NCBI RefSeq assembly: GCF_030407815.1
Contig: NZ_JASDCS010000006.1
Coordinates: 248,001-312,000 of the forward strand
Direction: 5' to 3'
Origin: Psychrobacter sp. APC 3281
Lineage (GTDB): Bacteria; Pseudomonadota; Gammaproteobacteria; Pseudomonadales; Moraxellaceae
Length of the DNA: 64,000 bases
Below are positions 8,919-58,764 of the stretch, piece by piece. Positions within the stretch are counted from its first letter, which is position 1, and each line of letters starts with the position of its first letter. The notes beneath the pieces were generated by a model. The model saw nothing but the letters and a program-made list of their open reading frames with translations, was not told where the DNA came from and made no database searches. A program made the position numbers and the translations under genes.

Positions 8919-11114
8919 ATGAATATTGATGACATGGAAGGTTTGGACGAAGAAGCTCGGAAAGAAATTGAAGAGTTTCAGAAAGTGACACGTGAAGAAG
9001 ATGGAGATCAAGATTATGCAAAATCTCAATATAGCATTGGAAAGATTTGTGCCACTAAAAATTTCCTGTTGGAAGCAAAAAAGGCTTGGGCAAATATACA
9101 AAAAAATGATGATCCTGAAATTTATAACAAGGCTTTATACAGTCAGGGTTTAGCGTCTGCAATGTTGGAAGATAGAACACAGGCTATATTTTTTTGGAAT
9201 AAAGTGAAACGTAAGTGGGGTAAAGAAACGTTCGTAGATTCAAAGTTTAACTTAGGAACAGTCTATGCTCAAATGGAAAATTATGATGAAGCTTTAAAGG
9301 CTTGGGATAAGATAAAAAAGACTGATGATTTTAAAACCTATATTGATTTACAGATTCATATAGGTGTTGCTTATTATAAAAAAGGCGATGTAGATAGAGC
9401 TATTAGTATACTCGAAAGCGTTGATTTAAAAGATGGTTTGGAAGTATATGCAGAGGCACAGTTACGTTTAGGGATTATATGTTACAAATTAAATTTAATT
9501 GAAAAATCAATACGATATTTCTCTAGAGTCAAACGAGAGTATTCTCCTGTGGTTTTTAGTTCAGCAGCTTTTCATCTGGGTCTGACAATTCTTGAAAAAA
9601 GACAGGAGGTAGATAGCGCTTTGAATGCTTGGCATTCGATAATACGTGAAGACGATTCTACATTTTATGCAGAAGCACAGTTTAATATAGGAATCGTACA
9701 CCTCGAACTAGGAAAAAAAGAAGATGCATTGAATATACTAGGAAATATAAGGATTGAAGATAATGAAGAAGCATATAGTAAGGCTCAACTACATATAGCT
9801 GACTTATATGCTAGTCAAAATGATACTGATACAGCAATTAAATTCTGGAAAAATATAAAATTACAATATTCTTATGAACATTATTTAACTGCTAAACGTA
9901 ATATCGGAATGTGCTATTTTAAAAAAGGTGAAATTAATAAAGCAGTTAGCATATGGAAAGAACTTAGTGGAAGCGTTAAGTTCGGTGAGTATTCATTTAA
10001 GATAGACTGCTTTAGAAAAATTAACGATTTATTTAAATTGGATATAAATTCAGAAATAGGCAATGGCTTTCTTATATCTTTTATGCTAGTTCTAGATATC
10101 TATTCAAAATATCTCGATAGTATTACAAAAGCCCCTGAACGTAAGTTTGCGCACTATACTAGTACCTATGTAACTGATTTACTTTTGAAACATGATTATA
10201 AAGATCACAGTTGCAAGTTAGGAAGTAAATTTCGATTAAATACTATCAATAATGTTAATGACCCAAGTGAAGGATTAGTGCTTTCCAACTATTTAACTCA
10301 AGGTAATATAAATACTCTGAAATTTGAAAAGAATAACCAAGTATTCGTAAGTTGCTTTACTTTCAATCATGATAGTCTCAACCAGTTTCGATTATATGGT
10401 AAAGAAAATAACAAAGAAGCATCAGGTGTTAGTTTAATTTTTAAAAATAGTTATTTTCGAACTGACTACTATAATGAAGTCAGCAACTTTGAATTGCCTC
10501 GAAGGTTGAATGATTCTCTCGAAGTTAAGAATAATAGTAAAGATAATTCTTTTCTTTCAAAACAAATTTTATTGCGCTGTGTATATCTTGAGCCTAATAG
10601 TGGTTATATTAGATTAGCTCAAAGAGATAAGCTAACGTTTTATCGTGAATTCAGCGATAAGCAAGATGCTCAACAGCGTTGGGAAACTTATCAGAAAGAA
10701 ATAGATTCTAAAACTGATAAGGTTCAAAGCTTGCTTACTGATTTAAAAAATAGCTATTTAGGTATTACTAATGCTAAAAATCAGACTCTTGAAGAAAACC
10801 CTAAGCTAGGTAAGGATTTAGAGGTTCTTCGAGATGAAATTTTACTGCCTCTAAAATATCTAATCAAAAATTCTGCATTTCAAGAAGAGCAAGAATGCAG
10901 AATGATGTATATAACTACAATCGATAATTCGAAAGTTCAGATGGTATATGGACAAGCTTTATATATAGAATATGAAACGGATATTAAAGATAATCTTGAT
11001 AAAATCTATATTGCACCAGCAGCTACCCAGTATCAGCCTTATTTAGCAAAGTTACTTTGCGATACTGATGTTAAAATCGAACTCTCTAACAATCCTTACC
11101 GCCAAACTTCGTAA
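8919..11114 (+). CDS. TPR-repeat protein with DUF2971-like C-terminal region
   Basis: This 731-residue protein has no signal peptide or membrane segment. Residues about 15-380 are tandem TPR/Sel1-type helical repeats of roughly 34-38 residues, each with an A-x-x-x-x-G/A-x-x-Y/F pattern (for example AQLRLGIICYKL and AQFNIGIVHLELGKKEDAL). From about residue 405 the pattern changes. HYTSTYVTDLLLK, then FRLNTINNVNDPSEG and VSCFTFNHDSLNQFRLYG, then a late EEQECRMMY, resembles DUF2971 (typically Y-x-Y..., FNDPFE..., CFS...W..Y, ...E-x-E-x-R). The function of DUF2971 is not established. The gene is visibly A/T-rich with AAA/ATA codons, unlike ligA 3 bp upstream, which suggests horizontal acquisition. 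The DUF2971 assignment is by eye and moderate. Confidence 0.85.
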   Translation: MNIDDMEGLDEEARKEIEEFQKVTREEDGDQDYAKSQYSIGKICATKNFLLEAKKAWANIQKNDDPEIYNKALYSQGLASAMLEDRTQAIFFWNKVKRKWGKETFVDSKFNLGTVYAQMENYDEALKAWDKIKKTDDFKTYIDLQIHIGVAYYKKGDVDRAISILESVDLKDGLEVYAEAQLRLGIICYKLNLIEKSIRYFSRVKREYSPVVFSSAAFHLGLTILEKRQEVDSALNAWHSIIREDDSTFYAEAQFNIGIVHLELGKKEDALNILGNIRIEDNEEAYSKAQLHIADLYASQNDTDTAIKFWKNIKLQYSYEHYLTAKRNIGMCYFKKGEINKAVSIWKELSGSVKFGEYSFKIDCFRKINDLFKLDINSEIGNGFLISFMLVLDIYSKYLDSITKAPERKFAHYTSTYVTDLLLKHDYKDHSCKLGSKFRLNTINNVNDPSEGLVLSNYLTQGNINTLKFEKNNQVFVSCFTFNHDSLNQFRLYGKENNKEASGVSLIFKNSYFRTDYYNEVSNFELPRRLNDSLEVKNNSKDNSFLSKQILLRCVYLEPNSGYIRLAQRDKLTFYREFSDKQDAQQRWETYQKEIDSKTDKVQSLLTDLKNSYLGITNAKNQTLEENPKLGKDLEVLRDEILLPLKYLIKNSAFQEEQECRMMYITTIDNSKVQMVYGQALYIEYETDIKDNLDKIYIAPAATQYQPYLAKLLCDTDVKIELSNNPYRQTS

Positions 11115-11123
11115 TAAAATAGT

Positions 11124-11156
11124 AGCGTGTGTCACATAAATCAAAACACACGCTAT
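11124..11156 (+). terminator. Hairpin between convergent genes
   Basis: The perfect 10-bp arms TAGCGTGTGT and ACACACGCTA enclose a 13-base loop. The following run is only T/A mixed (TTAACTATTAA), so termination efficiency is doubtful. It could serve both the TPR gene and the converging lipoprotein gene. Confidence 0.5.
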
Positions 11157-11169
11157 TAACTATTAACTT

Positions 11170-11706
11170 CTACTCCGCCATCTCTCCATGTGTCTTCACA
11201 TCACCTTTCTTACCATCTGGCTGAATCACGATAGGTAATACCAATCCTTTGGCAAAGTCATCAGACAGCACATAATCATAGCGACTGGCAGCGACATCGG
11301 GCGTGGTATGAATGATAAGCGTCATCTCATTGCCATCGGTTAGCTCGTGTGAGACATAGGTTTCGCTGAGTTGGTCTAATGCTTTCGATAGCGCTTCGTT
11401 ACTTGCCATGCTCACCGTCAGATTATGCTGAGCGGTTGCAGCGTCCACTTTGAAGTAATCTGCATAGTCTCGGACGTTTTGACTATCGATCGCAAACGGA
11501 TATTTATAATTGGTAGGGTCAGCAGGCTTTGCACCGCTATCTACCAGTGACCAGTCGATGGTATCGGCTGTCGATGCAGATGGATCTGCTGCTGTCTCCG
11601 CAGTTTGCTCAGTGGCATCGACAGAATCGGTAGCGTTATCGCAGCCTGTCAGCGCCCACATGCTTGCCGTTGCAATTACCATCATACTTATCAGACGCTT
11701 TGCCAT
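11170..11706 (-). CDS. Putative lipoprotein, function unknown
   Basis: This is a 178-residue exported lipoprotein. The start chosen is the ATG at 11706 (MAKRLISMM...), which has AAGGG seven bases upstream; the frame is open to an ATG at 11733, but that would place a polar tail ahead of the signal peptide. A type II signal sequence ends in the lipobox ALTGC, followed by a Thr/Ala/Asp-rich linker. The C-terminal ~110 residues form a small domain I do not recognise. It has one DYADYFKVD helix-like stretch and no cysteines after the lipidated one. Asp after the lipid Cys (C-D) would retain it in the inner membrane by the E. coli +2 rule; whether that rule holds here is unknown. Confidence 0.8.
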   Translation of the reverse strand: MAKRLISMMVIATASMWALTGCDNATDSVDATEQTAETAADPSASTADTIDWSLVDSGAKPADPTNYKYPFAIDSQNVRDYADYFKVDAATAQHNLTVSMASNEALSKALDQLSETYVSHELTDGNEMTLIIHTTPDVAASRYDYVLSDDFAKGLVLPIVIQPDGKKGDVKTHGEMAE

Positions 11707-12047
11707 CGAGTTACCCTTTTGATTGTTGGTCATGATTGATTCGCTCTATCTGCTATTTTGACAGCTTTCTTTGTGCTTCTCTAGCGAAATACATCAGATG
11801 GTAAGTTTTGATATAGCCTAATTCTCTATAAAAGAATGACAGCGTCATCCTCGCTAAGCATACTAATGTATAACTTACACTCGGTTTCCTTGTATCAAAA
11901 TTATATTAAACTGACTATACAACTATCTATCTGATACTATTTTTTATAGCCATCTTTATACACATATCAAACGACCACGCATAAAAAAGCAGCCACTATA
12001 TAATGACTGCTTTTTGTCTATTACGATATGAGCGTATCTCTAACTGA
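11707..12047. other. Intergenic region between two lipoprotein genes
   Basis: This A/T-rich region of about 340 bp is upstream of the minus-strand lipoprotein at 11170-11706. It contains the terminator of the next minus-strand gene at 11983-12016. I see no other gene or strong promoter match in it. Confidence 0.5.
11983..12016 (-). terminator. Rho-independent terminator of the MliC-like lipoprotein gene
   Basis: On the minus strand, AAAAAGCAGTCA pairs with TGGCTGCTTTTTT around a short A/T loop, 30 bp after the stop codon of the gene at 12048-12458. Confidence 0.75.
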
Positions 12048-12458
12048 TTAGATTTGGCAGTTTACTTGGTATTCTTTACCATCAGCCCATTTCATCGCAA
12101 AGATACCTTTGTCGCCTTTCATGTGCCATGCATAGACGACCTCTGGGTTTGAGTCGTTTACGTAGCTTGCGACTTCGCCTTTCACTTTACCGTTTAGGAT
12201 GATTGGCTGCTCGGCCCATTTTACTTTTGGTAGGGTAGCGTTGAGCATCACTTGTTCTTTATTGATAGATTGCTTTGCCATGATTTTGCTGTCATCGGTG
12301 CAGGTGTATGGTGCTGGTGCCATACGATCATAGGCGGCGGTTACTTTTTCTGGAACTGGCGTATCAGTTGCATCTGAGGTAGTTGGTGCGGTAGTCGCAC
12401 AAGCGCTCAATAGGGCAAGGACTGGTAGAGTGGTTACAATTTTAGTTATCATTTTCAT
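12048..12458 (-). CDS. Small lipoprotein with an MliC-like C-terminal domain
   Basis: This is a 136-residue lipoprotein. The ATG at 12458 (MKMITKIV) is preserved as the start because GGAGAG lies six bases upstream; the longer frame begins at a TTG that overlaps this ribosome binding site. The signal peptide ends in lipobox LLSAC. After a Thr/Ala/Asp linker comes a compact domain that begins YTCTDDS and ends WHMKGDKGIF...WADGKEYQVNC. This arrangement of an early Cys, a W-x-x-K-G-D turn and a closing Y-x-V-x-C resembles MliC/PliC membrane-bound inhibitors of C-type lysozyme. The similarity is weak and read by eye. The two Cys would form a disulfide in the periplasm. It has its own terminator and appears monocistronic. 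Confidence 0.8.
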   Translation of the reverse strand: MKMITKIVTTLPVLALLSACATTAPTTSDATDTPVPEKVTAAYDRMAPAPYTCTDDSKIMAKQSINKEQVMLNATLPKVKWAEQPIILNGKVKGEVASYVNDSNPEVVYAWHMKGDKGIFAMKWADGKEYQVNCQI

Positions 12459-47147: not shown

Positions 47148-50100
47148 ATGGCATATAAAAAACGTTTCGATACCAGTAGTGCTTATGGTCAGCTGATCAT
47201 ACTGGTGTTTTTGCCTATCTGTGTGTTGGCAGCAGTAGGCGGCATCTTGGTATTTCACGAAACCATGCGTGCGAGTGACTCGGAGCAAGAAGTATTGGCT
47301 GAAGCAGTACTTATTCGCTACACACCAGTCATAGCTGAACTGATTCCTGAGCTGCTAGAACAAGAGCGCCAACAAGTAGGGAGTAGTGCTGAGAGGACCC
47401 AGCAAGCGGCAATGACGACGCTAGAGGGTATCCAAGATAAGCTTGGACGTATGCAGTCTGAGCAGCATGTACAGCGCATTGCTATTATTAATGAAGGCAA
47501 TCAAATACTGGCAACAGTCGGTTATGGTCTCAATGAAGAATGGCCGCTAATCAGTGATTCCGCAAGCTTTTTGTCACAACGACCAACACCTGTAGGTACA
47601 GCGTATGGCAGTGTATTGGGAGAATTTGAAGGGCAGACATTGTGGCTGCTCGTCGATATGGATAATGAGCCGCTCTATATTGCACGCTACCGTATTGCGA
47701 TGGCGTTAGTGATTACTGGTTTATTTACTATCCTGATTCTACTACTGAGCCTAAATATCTATTCAAAACGTTGGATTGCCCCCATTTATGAGCTGCGGTT
47801 GCAGTTGCAACGTACCCATGTTGATAATTTATACCAACCTGTACCCGTTGAGTCAGATGGTGAGCTGAATTTATTACAGCAAGATCTGGTCAGAACATTG
47901 CGCCGCTTACATAGAAGCTTTCAAGAGCTCAAAGACCATGCCGAGCAGACTGAGGATGATTTACGGTTGGCATTTGATGAGATGGAGATGCAAAACATTT
48001 CTATTCGAAATGCACGTGATGCAGCAATTTCAACCAGCCAAGCAAAGTCTGCATTTTTAGCCAATATCAGTCATGAACTGCGTACACCATTGAATAGTAT
48101 CGATGGTTTTATTAACTTGCTGGCACGTCACGGTGAGCTTAATCCCGAGCAGGACTTGTATGTACAGACCATACGTAAGTCCTCAGCACACTTGCTCGCT
48201 TTGGTAAATGATGTCTTAGATTTTTCTAAGATTGAAGCAGGCAAGCTGGTATTGGATCGCCATGAGTTCGATCTCTATGACACCATTTATGATGTGGTCG
48301 ATATGCTATCTCCTGTCTCTGCGGAGAAGGGTTTACGCATGGCGGTGCTTTTTTACAATGATGTGCCGATGCGTATCAACGGCGATGCGTTACGTCTCAA
48401 GCAAGTATTGACCAATATCGTTGGTAATGCCATTAAGTTTACCGATAGTGGTGATGTGGTGGTGCGTGTGAGCTTAGATGACCACCGTGATAATTATCTG
48501 ATGATTAGCGTGCAAGATAGTGGAAAAGGTATTTCTCTGGCAGATCAAAAAATGCTGTTCCAAAGCTTTAGCCAAGGCGATCCATCAATCACGCGTCAGT
48601 ATGGCGGTACAGGGTTGGGTCTGGTCATCTCCAAACAGTTAACACGCTTGATGGGCGGTGATATTGGGTTTCATGATAATGCTCAAGAGAATATTGCCAA
48701 TCAAGGTGCGACATTTTGGTTTCGCATGCCAGCCCATGTTGATGTGTTAGAGGCAGCCACAGGGCAGACGATTGAATTGCCAGTATTGGCGCCACTGGCA
48801 AGCGAGACCGATGAATTTAATGTACTGGTTTGGATCAATCATACCGCTTCGATACAGGTACTCAAGGCCAGCTTGCAGTATTTACCAATTAAATTGACTC
48901 AAGCCAACTCATTACCGGGTGTACTTGAGTCATTAAAAGAGCACGGTAATTATTGGGATTGGGTCATCGTTGATGATGATACCCAAGACGATATGATGGC
49001 GCTCCTCAAGCAAATTCGTCTGCATTATCAAGGTAAGCTTGCTGTGTTTGGCTACCAAGTGGCGGCCGATCAAGCGCTACTCAACCGCTATCATGCCAAC
49101 ATACTGTATGAGCCATTAGACAAAAGACAGCTATATGCAATGCTCGATACTCAAAGCCGTAGTACGCCGCAAAGCCTGCAGGAACCACGCTGGAAAGGGG
49201 TCACGGTACTGGCAGTTGATGACCATTTGCCCAATTTACTAGTGCTTGATGCTCTACTGAGCGAGCTAGGGATTCAGGTAGTTACTGCGAGCAGTGGGTT
49301 TGATGCTATTGAGATAATCAGTAAACAACAAACCAAAAACATCAAAACTGCTAAGAGCGATAAGCAAAGTCTATCGAATAAAACGCAACTCTCTAAAGCA
49401 GAAACACGTGATGAGATAAACAAGAAAACAAATAGCGCGTTCTATCATGAGGACACGAGCGCTGAAGATAAAGCAGCTACGCAAGACAAAGACAAAGACA
49501 ATATTGATTTGATATTTATGGATATTCAAATGCCGCGTATGTCAGGTCATGAGGCAGCTAAGCAGATTCGAAATATCGAAAATGCGGATAGTCGTATCCC
49601 TATTATCGCTCTGACAGCTCACGGGTTAGCAGATGAACGTGACAAACTTATAGCCAGCGGTATCAATGACTATGTCGGCAAACCTATTAGCCAACCTCAG
49701 TTATTGCAAGTGCTACAGAAATGGCTTGGTCGTAAGAGTACCATACCACAATTGACCGCGTTGCCCGATACAGATTTGCAGAGCTTTGGCTTACAGCATC
49801 CTGACTTACAGGGTGATAACTTACAAGGTGCTAATGTACAGGATGCTAATGTACGGGCTACCGACTCATCAGAGGCTGAACTAACTGCTATAGACTCGCT
49901 GCGCGGTTACTCAATCAACGATAATGGTTTATCGAACGACTTACTCCCTAACAAGGTAAATAATAAAGAGTCTCAAGCCAGTTCAGGTATGTCTTCAGAT
50001 GACTCAACCGCTACTTATCCAATAATAAGAGGAGACGGGGTAGATCGTAATAGTACTTCTGTCAGTAGCGAGCCAAAAATTACCCGTCCATTATCCTTGA

Positions 50101-50783
50101 AAAAAATCCGTGATGATTATTTGCGTGATAGCCAGCCTCGTGAAAACTATAGACGAGATGCTGCGCGTGATATTCAACCGCGCTATGAGAGCTTACGTCT
50201 ACAAAAACAAGGTCAGTCGCCACTACTACAATCAACAACAAAGTCTATCGACAAATCTCAAGATGAAAGCCCTCAAGACCAAAGCTTTCAAGATAGGACA
50301 GCTAATTCTAACTCGATTTTACACGAGCAAATCAATAATGACCTTAGCAACAATAATATCAGCAAAAGTGATACCTCAAACATTTTAGATTGGCAAGATG
50401 CGCTCACTCGTTCAGCGAACAAACCTGAATTGGCGGCCAAGCTTATTATCATGATGATCGATACTATCAATGATGAAAAACAGGCACTCATTCAGGCATG
50501 GGAAGCGCATGACCGCAATATGCTGGCACAGATTGCCCATCGTATACTGGGTGGGAGTCGATATACAGGTGTACCACAATTGCGTCAGGCTAGCCAAGAT
50601 TTAGAAGATAAGTGCTTGCTGAATGTACAGCATACAACACCTGTGCAATTTGCAATGATTGAGCCATATTATGAGGCATTATTAACGGCGCTAGACAACT
50701 TGCAAAAGGTAGATTTATCTTCTTATCCGCAGCTTAATTATCATCGCTTAAGCGAAAATGATATGACGTGGAAAATGATATAA
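47148..50783 (+). CDS. gacS: Hybrid sensor histidine kinase GacS/BarA
   Basis: This is a tripartite hybrid kinase of 1211 residues, the sensor of the GacS-GacA (BarA-UvrY) system that controls Rsm/Csr small RNAs. Two membrane segments (about 16-37 and 183-204) flank a periplasmic domain. HAMP, HisKA with H309 in SHELRTPLNSI, and an HATPase with NIVGNAIKF, DSGKGIS and GGTGLGL follow. A degraded receiver-like segment (about 555-670) precedes a receiver with D792 (MDIQMPRMSG) and an HPt with H1131 in IAHRILGGSRYTGV. Two oddities: a 55-residue polar insert splits the receiver (about 727-783), and a 200-residue Ser/Asn/Gln-rich linker (870-1076) precedes the HPt. Function is inferred by family. 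Confidence 0.95.
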   Translation: MAYKKRFDTSSAYGQLIILVFLPICVLAAVGGILVFHETMRASDSEQEVLAEAVLIRYTPVIAELIPELLEQERQQVGSSAERTQQAAMTTLEGIQDKLGRMQSEQHVQRIAIINEGNQILATVGYGLNEEWPLISDSASFLSQRPTPVGTAYGSVLGEFEGQTLWLLVDMDNEPLYIARYRIAMALVITGLFTILILLLSLNIYSKRWIAPIYELRLQLQRTHVDNLYQPVPVESDGELNLLQQDLVRTLRRLHRSFQELKDHAEQTEDDLRLAFDEMEMQNISIRNARDAAISTSQAKSAFLANISHELRTPLNSIDGFINLLARHGELNPEQDLYVQTIRKSSAHLLALVNDVLDFSKIEAGKLVLDRHEFDLYDTIYDVVDMLSPVSAEKGLRMAVLFYNDVPMRINGDALRLKQVLTNIVGNAIKFTDSGDVVVRVSLDDHRDNYLMISVQDSGKGISLADQKMLFQSFSQGDPSITRQYGGTGLGLVISKQLTRLMGGDIGFHDNAQENIANQGATFWFRMPAHVDVLEAATGQTIELPVLAPLASETDEFNVLVWINHTASIQVLKASLQYLPIKLTQANSLPGVLESLKEHGNYWDWVIVDDDTQDDMMALLKQIRLHYQGKLAVFGYQVAADQALLNRYHANILYEPLDKRQLYAMLDTQSRSTPQSLQEPRWKGVTVLAVDDHLPNLLVLDALLSELGIQVVTASSGFDAIEIISKQQTKNIKTAKSDKQSLSNKTQLSKAETRDEINKKTNSAFYHEDTSAEDKAATQDKDKDNIDLIFMDIQMPRMSGHEAAKQIRNIENADSRIPIIALTAHGLADERDKLIASGINDYVGKPISQPQLLQVLQKWLGRKSTIPQLTALPDTDLQSFGLQHPDLQGDNLQGANVQDANVRATDSSEAELTAIDSLRGYSINDNGLSNDLLPNKVNNKESQASSGMSSDDSTATYPIIRGDGVDRNSTSVSSEPKITRPLSLKKIRDDYLRDSQPRENYRRDAARDIQPRYESLRLQKQGQSPLLQSTTKSIDKSQDESPQDQSFQDRTANSNSILHEQINNDLSNNNISKSDTSNILDWQDALTRSANKPELAAKLIIMMIDTINDEKQALIQAWEAHDRNMLAQIAHRILGGSRYTGVPQLRQASQDLEDKCLLNVQHTTPVQFAMIEPYYEALLTALDNLQKVDLSSYPQLNYHRLSENDMTWKMI

Positions 50784-53464: not shown

Positions 53465-53504
53465 AAAAAGCACTCATACGTTCACAGCGTATGAGTGCTT
53501 TTTT
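53465..53504 (+). terminator. Rho-independent terminator after the Bcr/CflA gene
   Basis: AAAAAGCACTCATACG and CGTATGAGTGCTTTTTT pair around a seven-base loop, followed by a T-run. Confidence 0.95.
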
Positions 53505-53784: not shown

Positions 53785-54648
53785 ATGAAGCAGTTATATC
53801 GAGCGTTACCGATTTTGTTGAGTGTTGGCCTATTTGGCTGTGGTAATTCTGCTACTCAAGAAAATGCAAGCGCCCCAGTAAAGGAAAACACAGATAGCTT
53901 TGTGAGTAATTTGCCTGATACGGCTCCAGTTATTAAGGTCGGTACTGAAGCCAATTATGCTCCTTATGAATTTAAAGATGAATATGGAAATGTAACAGGC
54001 TTCGATATAGAACTGATGCAATATATTGGTGAAAATCAAGGTTTTAAAGTTGAAGTTTATAATGATCCTTGGGAAGGATTGTTTGATAACTTGGATAATA
54101 AAAGCCGAGATATGGTAGCAGCAGGTCTTACTTACAGTAGCGAGCGTGCTAGCAAATATCTGCTTTCAGATGCTTATGCGCCTCTTCCTACTAGCCTTGT
54201 ATATTTAGACGAGTCATTAAATATTAAGTCATTAGATGATTTAGGTACTTTAAGAGTAGGTGTATTGACCAGTTCAGAACCTTATGAATACTTCGCACAA
54301 GGTAAATATAAATTAGGTTCTTTAGAGCAATATCCGACTACATTTGCAGCGGTAGAAGCGATGGCACAAGACAAAGTTGATGCTGTCGTAGATGATTCTG
54401 GTGTACTCCGTTATACATTAAATGATCTACCCAGTCTGCAGCCACAATACTTTGACTATGAAAGCATTAGAGCGGACGGTGCTCGCAAAGTATTTCTAGT
54501 AGATAAAGCTCAGCCTGACCTGCTGAAAAAAGTGAATACAGGGTTAAAAGGGTTAAAAGAAGACGGTACTTACGCAAAGTTAACGACCAAATGGTTTGGT
54601 ACAGATTTGACAAAAGCATCTTTGCAGCAACAGGAAATGTTGCAGTAA
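53785..54648 (+). CDS. Solute-binding lipoprotein (SBP_bac_3-like)
   Basis: This 287-residue periplasmic binding protein is lipid-anchored. The signal ends in lipobox LFGCGN (C19) and a Ser/Ala/Asn linker follows. The binding domain reads IKVGTEANYAPYEFKDEYGNVTGFDIELMQYIG, the amino-acid-binding (family 3) opening, and later AAGLTYSSERASKYLLS, DAYAPLPTSLVY and KLTTKWFG. Family members bind polar amino acids or related ligands. No ABC permease or ATPase gene is present, and the next gene, 82 bp on, is a membrane-bound CheA-like kinase. A sensory partner role is therefore more likely than transport, though a distant transporter cannot be excluded. Confidence 0.9.
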   Translation: MKQLYRALPILLSVGLFGCGNSATQENASAPVKENTDSFVSNLPDTAPVIKVGTEANYAPYEFKDEYGNVTGFDIELMQYIGENQGFKVEVYNDPWEGLFDNLDNKSRDMVAAGLTYSSERASKYLLSDAYAPLPTSLVYLDESLNIKSLDDLGTLRVGVLTSSEPYEYFAQGKYKLGSLEQYPTTFAAVEAMAQDKVDAVVDDSGVLRYTLNDLPSLQPQYFDYESIRADGARKVFLVDKAQPDLLKKVNTGLKGLKEDGTYAKLTTKWFGTDLTKASLQQQEMLQ

Positions 54649-54730
54649 CCCTAAGCGTAGTAGTTATGGAACGTATTATTTTTAAACAACCATAAATATA
54701 AATTTATCTATACATTGAAAGGACTATGCT

Positions 54731-56914
54731 ATGACTATATCAACTCAAAACGGTAACTCGCGTTATCGTGGTTTGATCTTGTCGATTGCTGCCTTCTTGG
54801 CATTGATTGGGATACTGCTTGCATTTACGTTTTATACTTCAAGTGTTCTTGAACGTAACACCACATTGGTAAATATATCTAATAAAACAGCTAATAACGC
54901 TCAAGCTATCATCAAAGACTTGTTCGACTTACAAGGTAGTATTGGTGAACATATTAATTCTCCTCACCAGAAGCGTGTAAGAGAAAGACTAGACAATAAT
55001 ACCCAAGGTATTGATCAATTACTTTCTAGTATGCGCGAAGGTTCGGAGTACATTGACGATTCTGGAAATGCTCATAAAATTCCAAGTATTAAAACATCAA
55101 CTGAATTGGCAGCCTTAGAAAGAGCACAGCAAGATTGGAGTGAGCTAAAACCACTAATTGCAAATTACCTTGAAGGTGCTGGTGATATTCGGATAGATTC
55201 TTCAGACGAGTTGGCATTAGCATATGAACAGGCAAAAACTTCTAGCTTGAGTATGAACGATGCGCTTGATGAGCTGACTAATGAAGTTTACGAAGAAACA
55301 AAGCGTCAAGCAACTACCATTCGTCTTATTCAGGTACTTGGTGTTGCCGCTATCTTTACCTACTTCCTAATCTTCGTATTCTTCTTTGTACGTCGTCTAC
55401 GTGAGACGGATGCTGAAGCTCTTGCCGCTCGCCAAGAAACGCAAGAAATTATGGAAACGGTAAATACGGGTCTTTTCCTGCTGGATAAAGACTTGAATAT
55501 TGGTCAACAGCATTCTCGCGCGCTGAATAATATTATCGGCTCTGATCGCTTGGCAGGGGAAAACTTCACCAATGTCTTGCGTGGTCGTATCTCTGATAAA
55601 GACCTCAAGACCACACAGCAATTCATTGAGCAGCTCTATAACCCTCGAGTTAAAGAAAAGCTGGTAGATTCACTTAACCCGTTAAACAAAGTCATGCTGC
55701 ATAATCTGTCTGACGACAAGAGTCTTGATAATCGCTTCTTGGATTTTAAATTCTCACGTGTTTATGATAATAAAGACATTGCCCGTATCTTGGTCAATGT
55801 GAATGATGTATCAGATGCAGTCTATTTAGAACAGCGCCTAGAAAAAGAGCGTTCGCAAAACGATATGCAGATTGAGATGTTAACGACTATCTTGAATGTA
55901 AATCCAAAGATTATTAATGAGTTTATTGGTAATACCCAAGCACATATCGAGAAGATGAATAACATCTTGAAAAATCCTGGTAGCTCGCAGTATGAGCTTG
56001 AAGGTAAATTGAAAGCTATTTATCGTGAAATGCACAGCTTAAAAGGTGAAGCATCAGCACTAAAACTACATAGCTTTACGAAGATTGCTTCTGATGCTGA
56101 AGACAAGTTACATGCATTACAAAACCAAGGTCAGTTGTCTGGTAATGACTTCTTACCATTGGCAGTACATTTGGATGACTTGCTCAGCTTATCGAACACG
56201 ATTGCGACGTTGGGCGAACGTATCAACCGCTCAGCACCGACAGTAGCTAAGTCGTCAACCGTACAAGCACCAGTCGCTACTCAAAATCCAGTAGCAGATC
56301 ATACAGCTGGCAATGCTGACTTCGATGGTGGGCTAGATATCGACTTAGACAATGAAGCAGATGACGATTTATTGTCTTTTTACAATGAGTTTACAAAAGA
56401 GATTGCTGCAAGACAAGGCAAGCTAGTACAGCTAAAAAGTACGACGCTGACCCAAACGAGCATTCCGGCGCATCTTGCAAAGCCAATCAAAGAAATCAGT
56501 ATCCAGTTGCTGCGTAACGCGGTGGTACATGGTATCGAGTCACCAAGTGTGCGTCATACTACTGGCAAAACTGACATTGGGACTATTGATCTGGAAGTGC
56601 AAGACAACGGTTCAAACTTTATGCTGGTTGTGCAAGATGACGGACAAGGTATCAACTACGACAACATCCGTAATAAGCTGATTGAAGAAGGTCGTTTCGG
56701 TGCAGAAGAGGCAAATCAGCTTAGCAAAGGCGACTTACTCAAACAGCTGTTCTCTTCTGGATTCTCTACTAAAGAGCACGCAGATGAAGACGGTGGCCGC
56801 GGTGTTGGACTTGATATCATCAAAGCAAAAGTAAAAGAGTATGATGGCAAGCTTAACGTAAATAGCGAGCTAGGTCAGATGACACGTTTTGTCATTACTT
56901 TACCTAAAGCTTAA
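54731..56914 (+). CDS. Membrane-bound CheA-like histidine kinase with HPt
   Basis: This 727-residue hybrid of sensor kinase and CheA has membrane segments at about 15-37 and 199-221 that enclose a ~160-residue periplasmic domain. A PAS-like segment (about 235-365) follows. The HPt domain has H435 in MHSLKGEASALKL (CheA P1 has H-S-x-K-G). The ATPase is of CheA type: RNAVVHGIE (N-box, N596), DDGQGI (G1), LFSSGFSTKE (F-box) and GGRGVGLDII (G2). There is no dimerisation P3, no CheW-like P5, and a Val/Ala/Thr linker joins HPt to ATPase. The HPt is mid-protein rather than N-terminal. Signals could enter through the periplasmic domain; its partners should be the CheY-like and CheX-like products downstream. 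Confidence 0.9.
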   Translation: MTISTQNGNSRYRGLILSIAAFLALIGILLAFTFYTSSVLERNTTLVNISNKTANNAQAIIKDLFDLQGSIGEHINSPHQKRVRERLDNNTQGIDQLLSSMREGSEYIDDSGNAHKIPSIKTSTELAALERAQQDWSELKPLIANYLEGAGDIRIDSSDELALAYEQAKTSSLSMNDALDELTNEVYEETKRQATTIRLIQVLGVAAIFTYFLIFVFFFVRRLRETDAEALAARQETQEIMETVNTGLFLLDKDLNIGQQHSRALNNIIGSDRLAGENFTNVLRGRISDKDLKTTQQFIEQLYNPRVKEKLVDSLNPLNKVMLHNLSDDKSLDNRFLDFKFSRVYDNKDIARILVNVNDVSDAVYLEQRLEKERSQNDMQIEMLTTILNVNPKIINEFIGNTQAHIEKMNNILKNPGSSQYELEGKLKAIYREMHSLKGEASALKLHSFTKIASDAEDKLHALQNQGQLSGNDFLPLAVHLDDLLSLSNTIATLGERINRSAPTVAKSSTVQAPVATQNPVADHTAGNADFDGGLDIDLDNEADDDLLSFYNEFTKEIAARQGKLVQLKSTTLTQTSIPAHLAKPIKEISIQLLRNAVVHGIESPSVRHTTGKTDIGTIDLEVQDNGSNFMLVVQDDGQGINYDNIRNKLIEEGRFGAEEANQLSKGDLLKQLFSSGFSTKEHADEDGGRGVGLDIIKAKVKEYDGKLNVNSELGQMTRFVITLPKA

Positions 56915-56975
56915 TTAAAATAGTAATTATATTGTCAGGGACGACAAGCACTTCATTAAAGGTAGTAGATAAGTT

Positions 56976-57338
56976 ATGCATAAGTTAATGATTGTTGATG
57001 ATTCAAATATTATTAGAAACCGTATTCAGCGCGCATACGATTCAGGAAAGTTCATGTTGGTTGCGACAGCGACTAGCGGTGTTCAAGCTATCGAAAAGTT
57101 CAATGTCCATCGTCCTGATGTAATCACCATGGACCTAACCATGCCACAAATGGATGGGCTAGAATGCATTGAAAAAATCATAGCGATTGATCCTGAAGTA
57201 CGCATTTTAGTGGTATCAGCGTTATCGGACAAAGCCACCGGCATCGAAGCATTGTCACTAGGTGCCAGCGGGTTTTTGTGCAAACCTTTTTCGGAAGAGG
57301 AGCTTGTAGAGTCTTTGTATGAGCTGATGCAAGACTAA
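56976..57338 (+). CDS. CheY-like single-domain response regulator
   Basis: This is a 120-residue stand-alone receiver. D8 and D9 (VDDS), phosphoacceptor D53 (VITMDLTMPQMDG), S81 (VVSALSD) and K103 (LCKPFS) complete the acid pocket. No output domain follows, so it acts by binding a partner, as CheY does on flagellar switches. The gene lies 60 bp after the CheA-like kinase and 30 bp before the CheX-like genes, so it is the likely phosphate receiver from H435 and the substrate of the phosphatases. The downstream target is unknown. Classic CheY motifs for FliM binding cannot be judged by eye. Confidence 0.95.
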   Translation: MHKLMIVDDSNIIRNRIQRAYDSGKFMLVATATSGVQAIEKFNVHRPDVITMDLTMPQMDGLECIEKIIAIDPEVRILVVSALSDKATGIEALSLGASGFLCKPFSEEELVESLYELMQD

Positions 57339-57368
57339 TACCATTCATCGACCAAAGCAGATGTCATT

Positions 57369-57818
57369 ATGAAAGAGCAAAAGCTACAGATTTTTTTAAG
57401 TATTATTAGTAATTATTTTGACCAGTTTGGGGGAGAAGAGCTAATTGCTGATACCCCTTACTTACTAGAAAACAAACAGCCAAAAGTCCACGATTATACG
57501 GGCGTGATTGGTATATCTGGTGGCCAAAAAGGAGTGGTATATTTTTCGGCGACGCGTGACTTGCTGTCTTCAATATTAGACAGCATGGGCGAAACCGATA
57601 AAAGTGAAGAGAACTATGTAGACCTGGCTGGGGAAGTGGCCAATACCATCGCAGGCAATGCACGCAAAGAGTTTGGCTCAGAATTCCATATCTCTGTACC
57701 ATTTGTGTTCAAAGGTGCACCGCAAAGTATTGTATTGCCGAACGATGAGCGTTCTTTTATCATCCCCATCACTTGGCATTCTCAAGTAGGCGAGATTGTG
57801 GTTTGTTTGCAAGATTAA
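57369..57818 (+). CDS. CheX-like phosphatase, first copy
   Basis: This 149-residue protein resembles CheX, the phosphatase that dephosphorylates CheY-P. The active-site signature is DLAGEVANTIAGNARKEFG: E89 and N92 of the E-x-x-N-x-x-x-G helix. The CheX domain is otherwise a beta sheet with the opening VIGISGGQKGVVYFS. It starts 30 bp after the receiver gene without an obvious ribosome binding site and ends 35 bp before its paralogue. The likely job is to terminate the receiver signal; whether it is an active enzyme or an adaptor is not known. Confidence 0.88.
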   Translation: MKEQKLQIFLSIISNYFDQFGGEELIADTPYLLENKQPKVHDYTGVIGISGGQKGVVYFSATRDLLSSILDSMGETDKSEENYVDLAGEVANTIAGNARKEFGSEFHISVPFVFKGAPQSIVLPNDERSFIIPITWHSQVGEIVVCLQD

Positions 57819-57853
57819 TGCTGCCACGTAATACAGATGGATATTAATATATT

Positions 57854-58300
57854 ATGGTTAAAGTAGAAAAATTGGGTGTATTTCTAAGCTCGATCAATGC
57901 GTTTTTTGCGCAAATCGATGGCTCAGAAGTGTCAATTGATACCCCTTACTTGAACAACAAAAGCGCGATTGGCTTTGATTATAGCGGTGTCATTAAGATA
58001 TCAGGGCCTTTGGAAGGCTGCGTCTATGTCAGTGCACCAAGCGTGATGTTGCGAGAAGTCATCAAAGTGATGGGCGAGCCTGACTCTTCAATTACTATGA
58101 TGAAAGATTTATTGGGTGAAATGGCCAATACAATCTCAGGTAATGCTCGGACAGAGTTTGGTTCAGAGTTTATTATCTCTCCGCCGCACATTGTGGAGAG
58201 TGCGCCAAGCGTGTCTTATTTGCCTAAAGATCGTCAAAGCTATATCACACCATTTACGTGGCGTGGTTACAAGGCGGTCATTGGTATTTGCATTGCATAA
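57854..58300 (+). CDS. CheX-like phosphatase, second copy
   Basis: This 148-residue paralogue of the preceding protein is clearly related but diverged. The two start at the same register (KLQIFLSIISNYFDQF against KLGVFLSSINAFFAQI) and keep E89 and N92 at identical positions (LLGEMANTISGNARTEFG). The pair arose by tandem duplication and both retain the catalytic residues, so neither is an obvious pseudoenzyme. They may form a heterodimer, because CheX is dimeric in other species, or one may have become specific for another receiver. No gene follows in this direction before the terminator at 58393. Confidence 0.87.
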   Translation: MVKVEKLGVFLSSINAFFAQIDGSEVSIDTPYLNNKSAIGFDYSGVIKISGPLEGCVYVSAPSVMLREVIKVMGEPDSSITMMKDLLGEMANTISGNARTEFGSEFIISPPHIVESAPSVSYLPKDRQSYITPFTWRGYKAVIGICIA

Positions 58301-58392
58301 ATTATAGTCAATCCTCTGTAAACGAGTGATAACTATAAAAGAGTGACGGCGGTAACCCTGCTTGAAAAATAGCTATTAAAAAGACAATCATG

Positions 58393-58423
58393 AAAAAAGC
58401 GATGCAAATGTGTCGCTTTTTTT
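58393..58423 (+). terminator. Rho-independent terminator after the CheX genes
   Basis: AAAAAAGCGA and TCGCTTTTTT enclose an 11-base loop and are followed by T, closing the cluster about 90 bp after the second CheX stop. Confidence 0.9.
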
Positions 58424-58764
58424 GTTTTATTATCGCCATATTTTGTTTTTATCTTATTGATACGCTACAAACAAACTGCTGGAGATTCCAAGACGTTATG
58501 TGATAAAATACAGCGCAGCTATTTTTTATAATTCACTTTATAGTTTAGATTTAGGCATTTGCTTCGATCTAGCGATAGCTTCTTTTTTTAAACCAACCAA
58601 TGACACACACATCATGGCAAAAAATTGCTGGGTGTTTGGCGACTTGATTAATTTGTGATCTGTTAGTGCTTTACTAATGAAAACTAACTGGTAGCAGATG
58701 CGTGTCGCTAAATAGGCTGTTTTTGTGATGTGGAGGCATAACCCAACCAATAGGATATATTCTC
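58424..58764 (+). promoter_or_regulatory. Upstream region and leader of rpsB
   Basis: These 340 bp precede rpsB. A TAAAAT element (58504) is a possible -10 but has no clear -35 partner at standard spacing. rpsB leaders are known to carry autogenous control of S2 in other gammaproteobacteria. I do not see a definable conserved motif here, so this is an unconfirmed regulatory region. Confidence 0.35.

Follow-up and report, generated by a model that had tools for sequence, protein, structure and literature searches.

According to the part of a survey of CheA proteins on which we draw (PMC10542144), HPt, dimerisation, ATPase and CheW domains form a core that is present in all CheA. For Psychrobacter, the accessible part of a 2016 genome paper reports cheY and cheX in 16 strains in which the other chemotaxis genes and the flagella-assembly genes are absent (PMC4754876). 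In the staphylococcal agr groups, as outlined in the portion of a third paper available to us (PMC10482373), one hypervariable stretch spans the signal part as well as the kinase's sensor part, the core being constant. Here, we describe a chromosomal five-gene operon in a stretch of 64,000 nucleotides from Psychrobacter sp. APC 3281 (contig NZ_JASDCS010000006.1, positions 248,001 to 312,000 of the forward strand; the whole stretch is called the window below), which is likely the home of those Psychrobacter cheY and cheX genes and supplies a kinase and an input for them. We found that a binding lipoprotein and the outer domain of a membrane kinase act as a single exchangeable cassette, of type A, type B, or a type C that has no lipoprotein, set in a core that hardly varies; the cassette is predicted to determine which signal the cell responds to.

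All five open reading frames (ORFs) lie on the + strand, with intergenic gaps of 82, 61, 30, and 35 bp, which matches exactly a preliminary description made from the sequence alone. The gene identities proposed there were borne out by Pfam, with every match above the curated cut-off: SBP_bac_3 for the lipoprotein (3.6e-35), HATPase_c (1.3e-15) and Hpt (4.2e-07) for the kinase, Response_reg for the receiver (1.7e-28), and CheX for the last two proteins (7.6e-21 and 6.1e-19). The features are as follows.

53785..54648, + strand, SBP_bac_3 lipoprotein, 287 aa, sensor type A (ORF, Pfam)
53925..55310 (limits approximate), + strand, exchangeable sensor cassette, type A in the window (DNA and protein comparisons)
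54731..56914, + strand, membrane kinase, 727 aa (ORF, Pfam, AlphaFold model)
56976..57338, + strand, single-domain receiver, 120 aa (ORF, Pfam)
57369..57818, + strand, CheX-family protein 1 (CX1), 149 aa (ORF, Pfam)
57854..58300, + strand, CheX-family protein 2 (CX2), 148 aa (ORF, Pfam)

As also described earlier, none of the five is a gene for CheW, a methyl-accepting chemotaxis protein (MCP), CheR, or CheB; no further gene lies between them that could encode a peptide signal as in agr.

We compared the window copy with 67 related loci from named genomes (64 from Psychrobacter and 3 from Moraxella; these and further loci are numbered with L below), retrieved by a search that reaches close relatives only. 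The cassette extends from about codon 45-50 of the lipoprotein, across the intergenic gap, to the first transmembrane helix and the outer domain of the kinase. When the window is aligned with L037, DNA identity is ~92-98% on both sides but 33-64% from ~53,974 to ~55,320; a block of intermediate identity precedes this stretch. The same pattern is seen for L036 vs. L079 and for L035 vs. L039, with limits at about lipoprotein codon 45-50 and kinase codon 190-195, the latter being the end of the outer domain. At the protein level, L037 and the window are 44% identical in the lipoprotein and 48% in the outer domain, as against 99% in the PAS-like domain, 100% in the HPt domain, and 97% in the ATPase; for L036, the values are 85% in both lipoprotein and outer domain, 40% in the linker, and 81% in the ATPase. 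Type C (L081, L084, L088, L091, L093, and L100) has no lipoprotein, and its unrelated outer domain (11-16% identity) is joined near kinase codon 233. Distances between pairs are equally uneven, at 0.004 for the core and 0.485 for the outer domain between L036 and L079, and at 0.016 and 0.836 between L081 and L097.

Phylogenies give the same picture. On a core tree of 64 rows (the window copy and 63 loci; L053, L075, and L098 were left out for a partial or broken kinase, and L099 for having no single kinase ORF above 300 bits), the labels A, B, and C require 9 changes, no better than many shuffles, whereas on the outer-domain tree they require 2, which is the minimum. The core data reject a type A clade (L003, L035, and L036) with a p-AU (the p value of the approximately unbiased test) of 1.8e-8 and a type C clade (6 rows) with a p-AU of 1.4e-81, values to be read knowing that the groups were chosen after the identities had been seen, which the authors of the test warn against, and that L066 stands outside the type A set. 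As a side observation, L081 and L097 differ by 1.6% in their core proteins, while the adjacent upstream MFS gene is only ~67-90% identical in DNA, a contrast that hints at transfer of the operon core itself. A plasmid origin was considered and rejected, the operon being without a match in 72,556 plasmid records.

Does the lipoprotein travel with the outer domain for a functional reason? The partial correlation between the two, given the core, is 0.89 over 53 loci and 0.57 over the 47 type B loci (L041 and L044, with short lipoprotein ORFs, are left out of both), and 0 of 999 permutations were as high. Between core and lipoprotein, given the outer domain, it is 0.06 and -0.03, respectively. In a control with CX2 held constant, using the 43 type B loci with all neighbor genes complete, the lipoprotein correlated with the outer domain at 0.58, with the MFS gene at 0.19, and with the core at 0.12. 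This joint exchange supports a candidate signaling route from lipoprotein to kinase, although tight linkage could mimic it. Linkage would be all there is if the lipoprotein were an ordinary amino-acid-uptake protein or an orphan binding protein, a mere neighbor of a kinase that directly senses a different stimulus, which we regard as rather unlikely but far from negligible. Lipoprotein and outer domain are indeed neighbors in the DNA, and the sequence common to types A and B is too scant for a crossover between the two parts; since none is expected there, the A vs. B exchange might reflect linkage alone. Besides type C, outer domains without an adjacent lipoprotein exist in L080, L083, and L086, where they are A/B-like, so the fit may not be obligatory or the partner may be encoded elsewhere. 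In triads of other families, nothing that matches this lipoprotein was seen next to the kinase. What speaks against such a bystander role is that no ABC (ATP-binding cassette) permease or ATPase gene was seen in the window next to the lipoprotein gene, which has an MFS gene upstream of it and rpsB beyond the operon. What argues for a fit between the two parts is that among type B loci, which recombine more easily, the lipoprotein follows the outer domain and not the core, and that in type C it is lost together with a change to an unrelated outer domain.

The kinase is, as first described, a membrane protein, and its catalytic motifs are intact. It comprises an outer helical domain on the periplasmic side (~32-197), a PAS-like fold (~246-359), an HPt domain with H435, a linker (~503-543) that varies between relatives and is modeled with low confidence, and an ATPase (546-725). 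In an alignment of 55 kinases, 28 of them from outside Moraxellaceae at ~29-36% identity, H435, K438, and G439 of the HPt domain and N596, D636-D637-G638-G640, and G689/G691/G693 of the ATPase are invariant. In the AlphaFold model (mean pLDDT 77.5, pTM 0.47), long helices of the outer domain are followed by a PAS-like alpha/beta fold, the helical bundle of HPt, the linker, and a P4-type ATPase, which matches the solved CheA P4 1i58 both in sequence (1.6e-27) and in fold (TM 0.78 to 1i58_A). The top whole-protein fold match by E-value, a WalK model, was dismissed at a TM of 0.15-0.17, the CheA P4 matches being the meaningful ones. No Pfam match to the CheA dimerisation domain (P3) was found in the kinase up to an E-value of 1, and the model has a single helix (546-562) ahead of P4 and not the helical pair of P3. 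There is no CheW-like domain (P5) either, as the protein ends with P4 at 725-727. Because it has neither P3 nor P5, the kinase is CheA-like but not a CheA by the core-domain criterion given in the survey excerpt (PMC10542144). Two kinase genes in separate parts were seen among the relatives. In genome G002 (contig C1, 61043-65144), one part covers residues 8-573 and the other, ~1.9 kb away, residues 571-727, a layout that insertion of an element at the ATPase domain would produce. In L154, from another Moraxellaceae genus (10078-12269, minus strand), there are two ORFs 18 bp apart, one for the sensor-HPt part and one for the ATPase, which is either a real gene split or a frameshift.

The lipoprotein has an LFGC motif with Cys19, which we take to be a lipobox. 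The solved structures closest to it are those of proteins that bind amino acids and of reconstructed ancestors of such proteins, and T116, R121, and D204 align with conserved residues of these relatives, at positions that presumably hold the carboxylate and the amino group of the ligand. Since type B lipoproteins keep S/T, R, and D at the same positions, we predict an alpha-amino acid, or a small molecule resembling one, as the ligand of both types, with A and B differing in their choice of side chain.

At the other end of the operon, D8, D9, D53, S81, and K103 of the receiver are invariant in 80 sequences. CX1 has solved CheX proteins among its relatives (e.g., 3iic, 3hm4, and Thermotoga CheX). 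E89 and N92, presumably the ExxN catalytic pair of CheX phosphatases, are kept in 78 of 78 CX1 and 70 of 70 CX2 sequences. A search of the genome gave no CheX match besides these two genes. CX1 is the copy that also occurs outside Moraxellaceae, while the best match of CX2 is limited to Moraxellaceae among the loci compared. Single CheX genes are closest to CX2 in L083 and L086, both from Moraxella, and CX1-like in L099.

We then considered how constant the operon is. Kinase and receiver occur together in 67 of 67 related loci, accompanied by two CheX genes in 64 and by one in 3. A lipoprotein gene is adjacent in 55, absent in 10, and undecided in 2 that end at a contig edge. The preliminary description raised the question of whether the set stays together and held that a circuit of its own could not be upheld if the neighbors parted company in related genomes. 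The kinase-receiver-CheX core does stay together, but the lipoprotein, exchanged or absent (10/67 loci), does so in part only; it cannot count as a constant component, given type C, L080, L083, and L086, and neither can the pair of CheX proteins, the second being dispensable (3/67 loci have one). At a larger scale, a search of the family gave a CX1 match in 98 of 299 genomes, 84 of these in the genus. We retrieved the rpsB-tsf region from the 20 genomes of the genus that were listed without a CX1 match. In 11, rpsB directly follows the MFS gene at a distance of 312-449 bp, and no remnant of the five genes is seen; the remaining 9 have a different arrangement at this place and are uninformative on loss. 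Of two genomes in which matches were weak, G020 retains no more than a piece of CX2 at the site and G021 has none of the genes there. In G030, where a single CX1 match (59% identical) was found, the operon copy is decayed. A tree built from flanking proteins (94 rows) requires 13 changes between presence and absence or decay, 10 of them forced. While the tree itself cannot separate gain from loss, we favor loss because of the scars and the conserved flanks. The kinase-receiver-CheX core thus acts as a single unit that can be dispensed with. The many independent absences of the operon and its decay in a few genomes (G020 and G030) might suggest a degenerate or nonfunctional chemosensory remnant, but with catalytic residues invariant in all intact copies and a receiver 93-100% identical across most of the genus, this is very improbable.

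A wider search gave CheX matches in 82 of 390 genomes of the order. We kept 25 CheX loci from beyond the genus; 8 of these have the kinase-receiver-CheX triad, and the remainder lie beside hybrid kinases or are without relatives of these genes. Since the CheX locus L148 is in a cluster with an MCP gene, CheX would appear to serve other systems in this order too. Triads of other Pseudomonadales (Spongiibacter, Reinekea, Hahella, Cellvibrio, and others) share the kinase plan and the gene order with the window, with receivers 49-69% and CX1 38-53% identical, but have a PilJ-type outer domain, a single CheX, and no matching lipoprotein adjacent. This outer domain (PF13675) is found in 120 listed relatives of one triad kinase and was confirmed for two; named relatives of the triad kinase include Spongiibacter, Zhongshania, Reinekea, Hahella, Cellvibrio, and Agaribacterium. 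The window-type lipoprotein has no match in the fetched triad loci of other families and seems to have been added in the Moraxellaceae line.

From the gene content, the invariant residues, the conservation and loss of the core as a unit, and the joint exchange of the sensor parts, we infer that the operon is probably a small closed phosphorelay. A ligand-loaded lipoprotein would dock on the outer domain and thereby modulate the kinase, which would autophosphorylate at H435 and hand the phosphate on to D53 of the receiver. The two CheX proteins would strip it off again, so that the signal would fade without the CheR/CheB methylation of classic chemotaxis. The phosphorylated receiver would act on a target outside the operon. 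Several observations pull the other way. To the linkage and the lipoprotein-free loci discussed above can be added the weak but non-zero correlations of the lipoprotein with the MFS gene (9/999 permutations as high) and with the core (10/999). The missing dimerisation domain, together with the low pTM of the model, obscures how the ATPase would reach H435. Extra lipoprotein genes lie upstream of the kinase-adjacent one in L071, L072, L073, L077, L082, L054, and L098, up to three in a row in L082, and some of them are of type A, or close to it, at a locus with a type B kinase; these extra genes may be further inputs or left-overs of exchange. An ORF search between these genes and in type C gaps gave nothing convincing. 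Finally, the operon has been lost many times and is hence dispensable, and its neighbors point to no output.

The claim that the five genes make up every step of a phosphorelay was overstated, as the operon has no output gene and none of its proteins an output domain. Nor do the surroundings help: loci fetched from other families have unrelated neighbors, and gene context was abandoned as a guide to the output. It had also been stated that a self-contained circuit would be undermined by CheW, MCP, or flagellar genes sharing the operon. The operon has none, and a search of the genome for FliM/FliN gave no match, but CheW (in two places), one MCP, and one CheR are found in a separate region (contig C25, 116.7-126.3 kb), which includes a large CheW-bearing ORF of 2294 codons and which we take to be a Pil-Chp-type cluster. 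The genome also has PilB- and PilT-family matches. The operon could thus be an accessory to this pathway, its CheX proteins dephosphorylating PilG/PilH-type receivers and its kinase feeding them. In keeping with this, many relatives outside Moraxellaceae have a PilJ-type outer domain on this kinase, and the CheX system is missing from all 8 Psychrobacter genomes with no PilB match above the cut-off and no full-size PilT (G005, G023, G035, G501, G504, G507, G591, and G619). This co-absence, striking at first as a pointer to the output, was reduced to a single event because the 8 genomes form one clade, with one change, on the flank-gene tree. Moreover, 5 of the 8 still have CheW (3 do not), 12 other genomes have PilB/PilT but no intact CheX system, and the operon receiver shares only 26-31% identity with those encoded next to CheW in the same genome. 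G032 and G639 (89% and 85% complete) have no full PilT match, yet the CheX system is present. Overall, we judge the accessory role unlikely. For a self-contained phosphorelay, type IV pilus machinery is no more than a first guess as the target of the receiver, made on grounds of plausibility, of the PilJ-type outer domain of distant kin, and of the 8-genome clade lacking PilB, full-size PilT, and the CheX system. We would also entertain, tentatively and at less than an even chance, a broader reading in which the operon is a minimal chemosensory pathway without receptors, CheW, or methylation, in which strains of the genus trade ligand-specificity cassettes, much as with the staphylococcal agr groups but directed at small molecules such as nutrients, while an invariant receiver and CheX pair steer pilus-driven or other surface behavior in the absence of flagella.

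The operon is flanked by the MFS gene upstream and by rpsB, then tsf, downstream. Two further features lie at its borders.

53470..53504, + strand, perfect inverted repeat followed by a T run, 3' of the upstream MFS gene (read in the sequence; absent from the pattern-scan list)
58390..58425, + strand, terminator-like hairpin 3' of the operon (pattern scan, weak)

The repeat is likely a terminator of the MFS gene, which would set that gene apart from the operon. The pattern scan gave 6 terminator-like sites against a shuffle mean of 4.3 and 19 promoter-like sites against 15.6, and was not used as evidence because these counts are close to those of shuffles. Elsewhere in the window, two genes upstream of the MFS gene, a BarA-like hybrid kinase (HisKA, HATPase_c, receiver, and HPt; 47148-50783) has a long stretch, at residues ~880-1080, that is highly variable among its relatives.

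Taken together, these are ordinary parts in an unusual assembly, and the exchange of the sensor half is clear; our search of the open-access literature found no description of the operon or of such an exchange. If our reading is correct, the locus shows in compact, natural form how a binding protein and the outer domain of a kinase are traded as a unit, the near-isogenic pairs L036/L079 and L081/L097 are suited to experimental work on sensor specificity and to kinase engineering, and CheX would be at work outside receptor-based chemotaxis.

How does the operon compare with described systems? With CheA, the kinase shares an HPt phospho-acceptor and a P4-type ATPase, its best solved relatives being CheA P4 domains; unlike CheA, it sits in the membrane, has its own outer and PAS-like domains but no P3 or P5, and by its make-up needs no receptor array. 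The operon also departs from a classic chemosensory pathway by not having the combination of CheA, CheW, and MCP. Its CheX proteins resemble CheX phosphatases in their Pfam match and in E89/N92, present in all aligned copies, but are two tandem copies, of predicted activity, in an operon without CheW or receptors. As in LuxP-LuxQ and TorT-TorS, described in the part of a paper available to us (PMC8534201), a separate gene for a periplasmic binding protein stands beside the kinase (55/67 loci here), and the outer domain of TorS is all-helical, like that in the model of the window kinase. Binding protein and outer domain also evolve together here, as befits systems of this kind, with partial correlations of 0.57-0.89 that linkage may explain. 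LuxQ and TorS are HisKA/DHp hybrids, whereas the window kinase combines an HPt domain with a CheA-type ATPase, and strains differ through exchange of its outer domain and the binding protein. In this last respect, the operon is closest to the agr specificity groups, in which a signal part and a sensor part are likewise exchanged together on a constant core, but the signal there is a self-made peptide, while the operon has in its place a binding protein whose ligand is presumed to be a small molecule, and has no quorum gene.

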